NCBI GenBank assembly: GCA_026418015.1
Contig: JAOACE010000015.1
Location: 1 to 64,000 of the forward strand
Origin: Leptospiraceae bacterium
GTDB lineage: Bacteria > Spirochaetota > Leptospiria > Leptospirales > Leptonemataceae
Direction: 5' to 3'
DNA: 64,000 nucleotides
Made by a program: the position numbers and the translations under genes. Positions 9,659-54,187 of this stretch are shown here, one piece after another; position 1 is the stretch's first letter; every line of letters begins with the position of its first letter. The notes under the pieces were generated by a model. It saw only the letters and a list, made by a program, of their open reading frames with translations. It made no database searches and was not told where the DNA came from.

Positions 9659-10177
9659 TTATTGAATGTATGCTAATTCTTTTTGGCTTAATTCTTTCGA
9701 GAGGATTACGTTTTCTTGGCTATCTATTATATAGATTTTGTTTTCTACAATTTTAGTTTCTATGGGAATATATTGATTGTCTTTTAATACAAAGAATTTA
9801 CCAGGCTCATTCCTAAATGCATACAATGTGAGGTTGTGAATCTTACTGTGGATTTCTAATCGATCACCAACTTCTTTCAGCTCAATGAGATCGTTTTTAT
9901 TCATACCTAAATTCATTTTACTACCAGACCAAAATTCGATGGAATTAAGAATTATTGCATCGATAAAAAAAGAGATTCCATAAACAGGGATAATCGTTAA
10001 AAGAATCATCACAATAGAACGAACAATACCACCACCTTTGGATGGACCCCCAATCGAACCATTAAAATTATAAACTGTCCTAACTAGTGGGAAGGACCCA
10101 TAACAGTTTAGTAACACCCCAAAGCTAAAGCTTAGTATTAAGCTTATAGCGGTAATTTTTTTTGTTAAAGTTTTCAT
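9659..10177 (-). CDS. DUF3332 family lipoprotein
   Basis: A 172-residue protein with a lipoprotein-like signal (SLILSFSFGVLLNC). The sequence just after the Cys (YGSFPLVRTVYNFN) and the hydrophobic hairpin IVMILLTIIPVYGISFFIDAI are the hallmarks of DUF3332, a family of unknown function in proteobacteria and spirochaetes. The C-terminal 80 residues are a small beta domain. A clear ribosome-binding site (AAAAGGAGAAAAAG) lies just before the ATG. It follows glpK with a 33-base gap on the same strand, so it may be the last gene of a CBS-glpK-DUF3332 transcript, although the strong separate ribosome-binding site allows independent expression. Confidence 0.78.
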   Translation of the reverse strand: MKTLTKKITAISLILSFSFGVLLNCYGSFPLVRTVYNFNGSIGGPSKGGGIVRSIVMILLTIIPVYGISFFIDAIILNSIEFWSGSKMNLGMNKNDLIELKEVGDRLEIHSKIHNLTLYAFRNEPGKFFVLKDNQYIPIETKIVENKIYIIDSQENVILSKELSQKELAYIQ

Positions 10178-10210: not shown

Positions 10211-11707
10211 TTATTCCACCCAGTTTTTAACCCTTTCTATAGCTTTATGCCAGTATTTTAATTCTTTTTGTCGAATGTCTTCGGACATTTTAGGTTCAAA
10301 AACTGTTCTATCTCTAAGGATTTCTGTTAATTCTTCTGCATCTTTCCATACACCTGCATGTATTCCAGCTAAATAAGCTGAACCAGCAGCAGTTGTATCG
10401 ATATTTTTAGGACGTTCTACTCTTCTATTAAGAATATCTGCCTGAAACTGCATCAAATAGTGATTACTCGTTGCTCCACCATCTACGCGTAAAAAGGGAA
10501 GTTTTTTACCCGTATCTTTTTCCATTGCTTGAACTAAATCATAAGTTTGGAATGCTATTGACTTTAATGCTGCACGTGTGATTCTTGCTGGTGTTGTATC
10601 TCTTGTAAGACCAAATATAGCTCCGCGCGCCTTCATATCCCAATGAGGTGCACCCAATCCCACAAAAGCGGGAACAAAAACAACTTCGTCATCGTCTTTT
10701 AGATCATGGATTAAATCTTCGCTTTCTTTCGCGTTTGCAAAAAACTTCATATAATCTCTAAGCCATTGAATTACTGCACCTGCAATAAATACAGCACCTT
10801 CTAAACAATAGGCAACATTACCATCTTTATTGCATGCTAAGGTGGTTAATAGTCCTGAATTGCTAAGAATGAACTCATCTCCCGTATGGAATAATAAAAA
10901 GCATCCTGTTCCATAAGTGTTTTTTGCTTCGCCTGGATGTACACAAAGCTGACCAAACAATGCTGCTTGTTGATCTCCAATCAATGCAAATACAGGAATG
11001 CCATCTGGTAATACTTGGATGTTTTTGGTCTTTCCAAAATTACTTCTACTGGGTTGAACTTCTGGCAAAATATTTTTGGGTATGTTTAAGATGTTTAATA
11101 ATTCTTCATCCCATTTTTTATCTTTAATATTATAAATCATGGTACGACTTGCATTGGTATAATCGGTTTTGTGTTCACCAGTAAGTTTGTATAAAAGCCA
11201 ACTGTCCATCGTTCCAACAGATAAACGACCATTTTTGGCTAATTCTCTTGCACCTTCCACGTGATCTAATATCCATTTAATTTTTGTTCCAGAAAAATAT
11301 GCATCGATTACTAAACCTGTTTTGTTTTTTACCAAATTTTCGTATCCTTGATTTTTTAAATCGTTGCAAATATCTGCGGTTCGCCTGCATTGCCAAACGA
11401 TTGCATTGTAAATAGGTTTTCCTGTTTGTTTGTCCCAAATAACCACAGTTTCTCTTTGATTCGTGATTCCAATCGCTATCGCATTATGGGGTGATAAATC
11501 ACCTTTGTTGATCGCATCTTGGATTAAAAATTTAACACCAGCCCAAATTTCTTCGGGATCATGTTCTACCCAACCTGGTCTTGGAAAATGTTGTGTAAAT
11601 TCTCTATAACTACTACTGATTACTTGTCCTTTTTCGTCGAAACAGAATACGCGTGAACCCGTAGTACCATGATCGATAGAAATTATATATTTTTTATTCA
11701 TATTCAA
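10211..11707 (-). CDS. glpK: Glycerol kinase
   Basis: GlpK phosphorylates glycerol with ATP to sn-glycerol 3-phosphate in the cytoplasm. The 498-residue sequence shows FGGY-kinase hallmarks: the phosphate loop IDHGTTGSR, IGITNQRETVVIWD, NTYGTGCFLL (phosphate-2 region), LEGAVFIAGAVIQWLRD and the C-terminal RVDGGATSN. It is full length. An excellent AAGGAGGT site lies 7 bases before a TTG at 11707 and 13 bases before the ATG at 11701. Spacing favours the TTG, codon preference the ATG, and the two differ by only two residues. The gene follows a CBS-domain gene by 15 bases, so the G-rich leader of that gene probably belongs to glpK mRNA too. No glycerol transporter or glpD is present in the window. 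Confidence 0.96.
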   Translation of the reverse strand: MNMNKKYIISIDHGTTGSRVFCFDEKGQVISSSYREFTQHFPRPGWVEHDPEEIWAGVKFLIQDAINKGDLSPHNAIAIGITNQRETVVIWDKQTGKPIYNAIVWQCRRTADICNDLKNQGYENLVKNKTGLVIDAYFSGTKIKWILDHVEGARELAKNGRLSVGTMDSWLLYKLTGEHKTDYTNASRTMIYNIKDKKWDEELLNILNIPKNILPEVQPSRSNFGKTKNIQVLPDGIPVFALIGDQQAALFGQLCVHPGEAKNTYGTGCFLLFHTGDEFILSNSGLLTTLACNKDGNVAYCLEGAVFIAGAVIQWLRDYMKFFANAKESEDLIHDLKDDDEVVFVPAFVGLGAPHWDMKARGAIFGLTRDTTPARITRAALKSIAFQTYDLVQAMEKDTGKKLPFLRVDGGATSNHYLMQFQADILNRRVERPKNIDTTAAGSAYLAGIHAGVWKDAEELTEILRDRTVFEPKMSEDIRQKELKYWHKAIERVKNWVE

Positions 11708-11722
11708 TTTATTACCTCCTTT

Positions 11723-12313
11723 TTAACGAGTTTGTAGTACTTTTGCAATTTCTGTTAATGTATCTGCAATATCATAAGATTTAACGGGGATTCCCAATTG
11801 TCTTGCAATTTGATTTAACGAAAAGATTCCTCGAACAGTTTTTTCGTTATTTGGTCCTTGATAATCTACTACTAATATATGTTGTCTTTTCTTCTGTCTT
11901 AATGTTTCGATTACATCTGCAACCGTTGCATTTGCTAATGTTTTGATCTCGATTACATCTAATTGTTCCGCTGGAGTCATAATATCTTGAACGAGTATTT
12001 CGCTACGTTTTACGTTGTTTTCTTGTGCGAACTTAACTGGTTTTTCTCCTAGTATATCTTGTGCTGTTATAATACCAAGAATTTGATCAGAATAATTTAC
12101 AACAAAAAGAAGTCGGACTTTATTCGCGATCATCTTTTCGTTTGCTGCATCGATGGATTCCTTAGGATAGATGATACGTGCGGGAATTTTTTTTAAATCT
12201 GTCATAGCCTTGATTGCTGGATCTGTTGGATTTAAAGGTTCAAAAACAGGTGCTTCTGGTCGATGGAATTTAATACCAGTGCCTAAATTTATTGTAGGTA
12301 ATATTTTGCTCAT
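11723..12313 (-). CDS. Two-CBS-domain protein
   Basis: A 196-residue cytoplasmic protein made of an N-terminal linker (MSKILPTINLGTGIKFHRPEAP) and a pair of CBS domains (about 55-115 and 120-195) that normally form one adenosine-nucleotide-binding Bateman module. Recognisable pieces are KVRLLFVVNYSDQILGIITAQDILG and QDIMTPAEQLDVIEI ... KRQHILVVD. There is no attached catalytic domain, so it is probably a regulatory partner. The open frame continues upstream to 12439, but AAAGGAGATATT ending 5 bases before the ATG at 12313 fixes the start. The upstream extension is only translated G-rich repeat. It sits 15 bases before glpK, which suggests an energy-sensing role near glycerol use (inference). 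Confidence 0.85.
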   Translation of the reverse strand: MSKILPTINLGTGIKFHRPEAPVFEPLNPTDPAIKAMTDLKKIPARIIYPKESIDAANEKMIANKVRLLFVVNYSDQILGIITAQDILGEKPVKFAQENNVKRSEILVQDIMTPAEQLDVIEIKTLANATVADVIETLRQKKRQHILVVDYQGPNNEKTVRGIFSLNQIARQLGIPVKSYDIADTLTEIAKVLQTR

Positions 12314-12326
12314 ATAATATCTCCTT

Positions 12327-12405
12327 TTAGATTTTACCCACCCTCCCTCCCTTAGATTTTTACCCACCCAACCCGCCCTTAGATTTTTACCCACTCCTCC
12401 CGCCC
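12327..12405 (-). repeat. Three tandem G-quadruplex-forming repeats in the CBS-glpK leader
   Basis: Three direct copies (12327-12351, 12352-12378, 12379-12405; 25, 27 and 27 bases) of a unit reading TTAGATTTTTACCCACCC plus a C-rich tail on the + strand. On the transcribed minus-strand sense, copy 1 contains GGGAGGGAGGGTGGG and copy 2 GGGCGGGTTGGGTGGG, both perfect four-tract G-quadruplex motifs with loops of 1-2 bases. Copy 3 is degenerate and keeps only three GGG tracts. The block ends 14 bases before the CBS start codon, next to its ribosome-binding site. I found no similar G-tract cluster elsewhere in this AT-rich window. Confidence 0.85.
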
Positions 12406-12436
12406 TAATAATTCTAAAAATTTTTGTGTAAAATAA

Positions 12437-12695: not shown

Positions 12696-12983
12696 ATGAC
12701 AGAAGAATTCAAAGAGTTATGTTTTTTAGCAAGGTTAGATCCCAACGACGAAAGTTTAATTCATTTAGAACAGGATTTTAAAAAGATATTAGAATATGTA
12801 AAACACATAGAAGAAATTGATACATCTGCTATTGTAGAAGATTATACCGAAGAAGATACGTTAAATATTTTTAGAAAAGATGAACCTGAACCTACATTAC
12901 CCTTAGAAAAAATATCCAAAAATGCGCCTGATTGGGAATCTGGTCATTTTGTCGTACCAGGTGTGATTGAGCAAGAACACTAA
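12696..12983 (+). CDS. gatC: Asp/Glu-tRNA amidotransferase subunit C
   Basis: GatC is the small scaffold subunit of GatCAB, which converts misacylated Glu-tRNA(Gln) and/or Asp-tRNA(Asn) to the correct aminoacyl-tRNA. The 95-residue protein has the family pattern: an N-terminal helix (EEFKELCFLARLDPNDE), then the second helix EQDFKKILEYVKHIEEIDTS, then the conserved C-terminal segment with FRKDEPEPTLP and a final NAPDWESGHFVVPGVIE. It is 14 bases before gatA. gatB is not adjacent. Confidence 0.93.
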   Translation: MTEEFKELCFLARLDPNDESLIHLEQDFKKILEYVKHIEEIDTSAIVEDYTEEDTLNIFRKDEPEPTLPLEKISKNAPDWESGHFVVPGVIEQEH

Positions 12984-53257: not shown

Positions 53258-54187
53258 TTGTCTCTCAAAGTTTTATCTGATGATAGGATTATGTTAGGGG
53301 GATATTGTGATAATGGTAGTATCAATTATTTCTGCTATGCGAGATATGGTTCAGATGGAACAAATCAAACTTCTGGTTATATGAGTATAGGTGGTTCTGG
53401 TTCTGATTATGCAATGTCATTAGTAGTAGAATCCATGGAAGATAATTTCAATCCTGGTAAATTTTTATTAGGTGGTCATTGTAATGATCAGTTTTGTCTT
53501 GCTAGGTTAGATTTTTCTGGTTCCTTTGATACTTCTTTTAATTCTAGTGGTTATGTTATAAAGGATATTCCTACTACTGCTCCTGATATAGGTAATTCTC
53601 TTGCACTACAACCTGATGGAAAGATACTTTTAGGTGGATATTGTTTTGTTGGAGGTAGTGTTCAATTTTGTATAGCAAGGTTTAACTCTAATGGTTCTTT
53701 GGATACAAGTTTTGTTTCAGGAAATGGTTATATTGTACAAGATATTTCTGCTGGTTCTGATTATGGTAATTCTCTTGCACTACAACCTGATGGAAAGATA
53801 CTATTAGGTGGAACATGCGATAACAAATTTTGCATTGCAAGGTTTAACTCTAATGGTTCTTTGGATACAAGTTTTGGTTCAGGAAATGGTTATGTTGTAC
53901 AAGATATTTCTACCGGTTCTGATAATGGTAATTCTCTTGCAATACAACCTGATGGAAAGATACTTTTAGGTGGAACATGCGATAACAAATTTTGTGTTGC
54001 AAGGTTTAACTCTGGTGGTTCTTTGGATACAACTTTTGGAACTAGCGGATATTTTATTTTAGACATACTTGGTTCAAATCCGGACAATGCTAGATCTCTT
54101 TTGTTGCAACCTGATGGCAAGATTTTATTAGGTGGTTTTTGTCTTACTGGAGGTATACAAAAATTTTGTATAGCAAGAATTAGATAA
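53258..54187 (+). CDS. Delta-60 repeat lipoprotein, 3' part after the frameshift
   Basis: A 309-residue frame of six delta-60 repeats, each with the core LALQPDGKILLGG, a Cys pair (GGTCDNKFC), IARFNSNGSLDTSF and a glycine-rich turn. With the repeat upstream of the frameshift the total is seven, which could close a seven-bladed propeller. The start at 53258 is only the first Met-like codon after the frameshift; the repeat text continues upstream in this frame to about 53188, so this is the tail of the gene beginning at 52825. The regular Cys pair in each repeat is unusual for the family and suggests one disulfide per blade. Confidence 0.8.
   Translation: MSLKVLSDDRIMLGGYCDNGSINYFCYARYGSDGTNQTSGYMSIGGSGSDYAMSLVVESMEDNFNPGKFLLGGHCNDQFCLARLDFSGSFDTSFNSSGYVIKDIPTTAPDIGNSLALQPDGKILLGGYCFVGGSVQFCIARFNSNGSLDTSFVSGNGYIVQDISAGSDYGNSLALQPDGKILLGGTCDNKFCIARFNSNGSLDTSFGSGNGYVVQDISTGSDNGNSLAIQPDGKILLGGTCDNKFCVARFNSGGSLDTTFGTSGYFILDILGSNPDNARSLLLQPDGKILLGGFCLTGGIQKFCIARIR
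53681..54178 (+). repeat. 162-base tandem coding repeats
   Basis: Units starting at 53681, 53843 and 54005 repeat every 162 bases (54 codons). The first two are almost identical at DNA level (TTTAACTCTAATGGTTCTTT, GATGGAAAGATACT, GGAACATGCGATAACAAATT), implying recent duplication or gene conversion; the third and the earlier repeats are more diverged. Confidence 0.85.

Follow-up and report, generated by a model that had tools for sequence, protein, structure and literature searches.

The window, a 64-kb stretch of DNA with 30.7% GC, carries on its minus strand an operon of three cistrons, which encode a CBS-domain protein of 196 aa (11723..12313; Pfam PF00571, E=3.4e-13), an FGGY-family kinase of the glycerol kinase type (10211..11707; Pfam PF00370/PF02782) and a DUF3332 protein (9659..10177; Pfam PF11810). 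Upstream of the first cistron is a tandem repeat, placed by Tandem Repeats Finder at 12327-12406 with a period of 27, 3.0 copies and a score of 121; 5' of it, a divergent intergenic space runs up to a plus-strand gene at 12696. The sense strand of the repeat is the minus strand, which from 12405 to 12327 reads GGGCGGGAGGAGTGGGTAAAAATCTAA / GGGCGGGTTGGGTGGGTAAAAATCTAA / GGGAGGGAGGGTGGGTAAAATCTAA, followed by the Shine-Dalgarno (SD) sequence AAGGAG (12326-12321) and the ATG (12313-12311). The 5'-most unit (GGGCGGGAGGAGTGGG + TAAAAATCTAA; 12379..12405, 27 nt) has one weakened G-tract (GGAG), and ViennaRNA predicts no G-quadruplex (G4) in it. Unit 2 (GGGCGGGTTGGGTGGG + TAAAAATCTAA; 12352..12378, 27 nt; matched by our family search R1 with E=7e-4) and unit 3 (GGGAGGGAGGGTGGG + TAAAATCTAA; 12327..12351, 25 nt; matched by family search R2 at 12321-12350) each contain a perfect four-tract G3 motif with 1-2-nt loops, at 12378-12363 and 12351-12337, respectively.

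The first-pass annotation, made from the letters of the window, had described three sense-strand units of 25-27 bases with two perfect G3 motifs and no other comparable G-tract cluster in the window. Both statements are borne out: no G3 four-tract motif other than those in units 2 and 3 occurs anywhere in the window, on either strand, and 100 dinucleotide shuffles of it gave a mean of 0.01 such motifs and a maximum of 1. Its description of G4-capable repeats next to the ribosome-binding site is likewise supported, since the SD follows unit 3 immediately, a layout that recurs in other leaders. The distance of 14 bases that it gave to the start codon needs correction; the repeat ends 13 nt, and its last G lies 23 nt, from the ATG, with the SD in between. 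The predicted energy of the window leader at 37°C is -74.6 kcal/mol with G4 formation versus -16.3 kcal/mol without (ViennaRNA). The excess persists at 60°C, which, these being model values, suggests that easy melting is unlikely.

A coding origin of the repeat was considered and rejected: the CBS frame is open through the region (ORF from 12439), yet the units are of unequal length (27/27/25 nt here; 60-66 nt elsewhere) and an SD lies 3' of the arrays in leaders. A promoter consensus scan upstream of the window copy gave nothing above shuffles in this AT-rich DNA. On the sense strand, no intrinsic terminator or attenuator (GC stem plus U-tract) was found in the window leader or in two further leaders, L092 and L151. 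Elsewhere in the window, positions 53664-54135 hold a 162-bp tandem repeat of 2-3 copies that is probably coding.

The first-pass annotation had also suggested looking for the unit across the genome. The exact unit TTAGATTTTTACCCACCC has only 3 matches there with up to two mismatches allowed, whereas the looser G-tract architecture is widespread. Sequence searches of the window's own genome (G000; a 2.9-Mb draft assembly) gave about 15 G-tract leaders, in which clusters of G3 runs with 1-2-nt loops lie mostly on the sense strand, just 5' of an SD and ATG. The downstream genes, named from sequence where there was no Pfam match, include those for PPDK, etfA, recA, a PPDK_N protein, a lipoprotein, a CbbQ/NorQ ATPase, an acidic protein, a small cysteine-containing protein (named CANC here), a DJ-1/PfpI protein, SahH, ClpP and FixP, among others. 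Some of these leaders also contain an inverted repeat, GTCGCTG-GGCTATGCA-CAGCGAC. The array between etfB and etfA meets two contig ends (C9:1 and C22:1), so the assembly may have collapsed copies. Two other sites in this genome deserve mention. At G000:C3:72050, a G-rich GGGAGGGGTTGGGG lies upstream of a gene, with a CCCCTC inverted repeat close by; it is unrelated to the leader family. Before rplJ, there is no G4; a small perfect hairpin, CTTGC-TCCCAAAG-GCAAG, precedes TAAAAATTCTTAAAGGAG and is possibly a remnant or a related leader.

The full unit is seen in a congeneric draft genome, apparently a MAG (G003), where about 24 leader loci carry arrays of up to seven units; family search R2 finds 78 units at E<=0.01 and 89 at E<=5. 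Each unit consists, in order, of G-tracts (about four G-runs with 1-2-nt loops), an A-rich linker, a hairpin and an AACYCTAAA linker, which leads into the next unit or into the SD and ATG. Most of the 38 leaders that we tabulated have a cluster of at least four G-runs on the transcript strand. The hairpin is 22-23 nt long, with a main stem of 6-7 bp and a conserved loop, GGGyUnU, and it occurs in versions such as GTCGGC-GGGTTTACT-CGCCGAC, GACGCTG-GGCTTTGCA-CAGCGTC, GCCGTTG-GGTTTACA-CAACGGC and GTTGCTG-GGCTTTGCA-CAGCAAC. The loop is better conserved than the sequence of the stem. The hairpin adjoins the G4 upstream of the ribosome-binding site in most G003 units, while the window copy is without one.

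Pairing in the stem is maintained by compensatory change. Among 82 aligned units, 96% of cells are paired, two-sided changes occur in 9 of the 9 pairs, and covariation is 0.400 versus 0.155 when shuffled; sliding the partner by one base reduces pairing to 20-30%. The fairer control is the first set, 18 units aligned with MAFFT, because the alignment of 82 had been fitted to the model; in this first set, two-sided changes were found in 8 of 9 pairs, with a covariation of 0.595 versus 0.289 when shuffled. At least three G3 runs lie upstream of the hairpin in 56 of 70 hairpin units. The loops between adjacent G3 runs vary (T51/A20/C15) while the runs themselves stay G, a pattern that a quadruplex would produce and a pairing site would not. 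We also considered the G-tracts as anti-SD-like sequences, given GGAGGUG in some units, but the freely varying and often pyrimidine loops indicate that G-runs are conserved rather than anti-SD complementarity. A second stem, between the CYCU of the linker and the next G-run, is only suggestive (24 cases versus 17.3 expected, p=0.023).

Strong units lie nearly all on the sense strand, directly 5' of an SD and ATG, and only 3 of the 78 in G003 (L148, L153 and L155) are away from a start codon. In most hairpin leaders, 47-57 nt separate the last G-run from the ATG; in the hairpin-less class, to which the window copy belongs, the distance is 22-30 nt, and a few last G-runs lie elsewhere. About 12 arrays are intercistronic, starting 13-71 nt after a same-strand ORF and ending directly before the SD of one gene, as between etfB and etfA, rplA and rplJ, glpK and the DUF3332 gene, and before clpP. 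If the operons are transcribed as such, these arrays must be part of the transcripts. Their placement points to action on one cistron, through either the start of its translation or its segment of the mRNA. A TTGACA-17-TATTTT sequence lies about 20 nt before the L092 array. At L148, L150 and L155 of G003, a dispersed repeat of about 200 bp includes a G-tract/hairpin unit in degenerate form, GGGTGGGTATAAATTTCGTTGTAGGGATTTCACTGCGACAAT, with no adjoining start codon. At L090, an array of six nearly identical units is followed only by a short ORF and an IS110-like transposase, and its upstream flank is similar to the one at the PPDK array (L160).

The family was matched in only two of the 22 genomes of the bacterial family, G000 and G003. 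In this one genome pair, seven orthologous genes have a leader in both members: those for PPDK, recA, the lipoprotein, the acidic protein, CANC, FixP and ClpP. Copy number varies, as the first-pass annotation had supposed for its repeat: G-clusters number 1 in G000 versus 5 in G003 before PPDK, and 1 versus 7 before CANC. Unit identity is 0.75 within arrays versus 0.59 between arrays, which would fit tandem slippage combined with exchange among loci. Two other genomes of the genus (G001 and G002) have plain leaders at PPDK, recA and rplJ. The G003 counterpart of the window operon has its leader before the third gene, not the first: the DUF3332 orthologue that follows glpK (L142) bears a G4-hairpin leader while the CBS orthologue has none. 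Two relatives have CBS orthologues of 90% and 85% identity, and neither of these carries the leader. The leader is therefore dispensable, in general, for CBS, PPDK, recA and rplJ. We found no plasmid or phage relatives of the unit. The 18 viral matches to the hairpin core are in DNA of higher GC content, lack the G-tract unit and appear to be due to chance, so that a phage origin was set aside. Weak R2 matches elsewhere in the phylum were also discarded; in one genus (f14/g36) they reflect an intergenic G4 element of another kind, and the others were unconvincing. The sites in that genus (L124-L132, L135, L138-L140) are recurrent single intergenic GGGGCGGGTGGGCGGGCAGAATAAA sequences with no consistent relation to gene starts, and represent a separate element.

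Judged by sequence, the window repeats belong to a dispersed family of RNA leaders that is restricted to one lineage, and within it to the members that lack the hairpin. The first-pass annotation had linked the element to the CBS/glpK operon and its metabolism; such a specific link is not supported, as leaders precede dozens of functionally unrelated genes and CBS orthologues do without; with no common pathway and a leaderless CBS orthologue, a glpK-specific switch responding to K+ or temperature is not supported. We give about an even chance to the reading that the leader is a reusable, cistron-level translation-initiation cassette, tuned by copy number and G4-ATG distance and most likely raising translation. 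Its target would be the mRNA, at the step where translation of the adjoining cistron begins; there, a bulky folded block just 5' of the 30S site could stop upstream sliding or pairing, and might either bias the ribosome toward the SD or hold it in standby. The output of that cistron would thereby be set, and most likely raised, and would be tuned by the number of copies and by the G4-ATG distance (about 23-30 nt or about 53 nt). For the window copy, with its proximal geometry, a repressive or temperature/K+-dependent effect is possible by analogy: a G4 about 20 nt before the AUG represses, according to Holder and Hartig as cited in PMC11087576, so the sign of the effect is uncertain for this hairpin-less leader at 23 nt. 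The wider geometry would fit a general translation-initiation element no less well than a repressive K+/temperature switch.

Another reading extends the idea of the first-pass annotation to a general repressive switch, in which a G4 beside the SD of many genes would block the ribosome and melt or refold with temperature, K+ or a helicase. The hairpin-less class, with its last G-run 22-30 nt from the ATG, is close to the reported repressive spacing, and the predicted G4 energy of the window leader would suit such a block. Most G003 leaders, however, have a hairpin between the G4 and the SD and leave the SD outside the G4; housekeeping genes (rplJ, recA, clpP, PPDK) are among the targets; and the modelled excess at 60°C speaks against a structure that melts readily. 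We consider this switch unlikely. The intercistronic arrays, with stable stems and G4s at the starts of mRNA segments, might instead guard the segment that follows against nucleases or mark sites of cleavage between cistrons. No match to the RNase J family (TIGR00649), the best known 5'-3' exonuclease for which the structures could be an obstacle, was found in any of the four genomes, and a nuclease barrier is less favoured; moreover, the effect in the engineered precedent was not on mRNA lifetime (PMC11087576). A role in mRNA stability or processing thus seems distinctly improbable.

The conservation of the loop over the stem sequence, and the multiple copies, as in multi-site platforms, would be expected if an RNA-binding protein or small RNA read the GGGyUnU loop and the G-tracts to form a post-transcriptional regulon. 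Yet the targets share no pathway, and the CsrA signature is missing from nearly all loops (GGA in about 2 of 38 distinct hairpins, the loops being mostly GGGyUnU); we hold such a platform to be quite doubtful. Least probable to us is a selfish or neutral dispersed repeat, spread by recombination and tandem slippage with no benefit to the host gene. The restriction to one lineage, the orthologues without leader, the mosaic arrays, the identical copies, the higher identity within than between arrays, and the three degenerate copies embedded in a longer repeat that does not adjoin starts would all be natural for it. Set against these are the sense-strand position of the strong units directly before SD and ATG, the compensatory stem changes, the uniform spacing, the retention at seven orthologous genes and the lack of phage or plasmid relatives.

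Returning to the translation-initiation cassette, a more far-reaching version is that these modular RG4/hairpin units, by tandem expansion and contraction before individual cistrons, constitute a new class of translational control, in which copy number and the distance from G4 to start codon would serve as a genome-wide evolvable rheostat; we put this forward tentatively, as somewhat less than an even prospect. If true, it would be the natural counterpart of an engineered hairpin plus RG4 enhancer. To our knowledge, work on G-quadruplexes in bacterial 5'UTRs has dealt mainly with synthetic insertions or with predictions here and there. The present leaders form a natural family: the copies run to dozens, the accompanying hairpin covaries, the spacing to the start codon is nearly fixed, and orthologues differ in copy number. 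They offer a ready test of whether RG4s control bacterial translation and of whether the number of repeats tunes that control. Should the unit prove to be an enhancer, it would also be a portable genetic part.

Structured translation elements in 5'UTRs are known; the G4-hairpin repeat anatomy is unusual, and a literature text search of partial coverage found no described counterpart. REP, BOX, ERIC and Correia elements are dispersed bacterial intergenic repeats with many copies and inverted repeats, limited to particular lineages. Compared by description, the leader family is alike in all these respects, but we know of no confinement of those elements to the sense strand before start codons and of no G4 module in them. 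RNA thermometers and riboswitch leaders are similarly structured near the SD; in contrast to them, the family has only chance-level matches to Rfam covariance models, its SD is mostly outside the conserved hairpin, and its targets share no pathway. Ribosome standby-site leaders, as outlined in PMC3936740, resemble it in having hairpins and single-stranded linkers just 5' of the SD that could load or position the 30S subunit, but in that outline the model includes neither a G4 nor a dispersed repeat family. The closest likeness in architecture is to the enhancers of Lee et al. 2024, in which a hairpin upstream of a 5'UTR RG4 boosts translation up to 12-fold in T7 in vitro expression, with RG4 enhancement also in E. 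coli, not through mRNA stability, and an RG4 about 46 nt upstream of the SD (PMC11087576). Shared features are a short-loop RG4 upstream of the ribosome-binding site, an adjoining hairpin and tandem structures, and by analogy the leaders may share the effect on translation. The enhancers are synthetic T7 constructs with the hairpin upstream of a single RG4, whereas the leaders are natural, repeated in tandem arrays and have a hairpin between G4 and SD; since hairpin and G4 alternate along an array, inner units match the engineered hairpin-then-RG4 order, with an additional hairpin before the SD.
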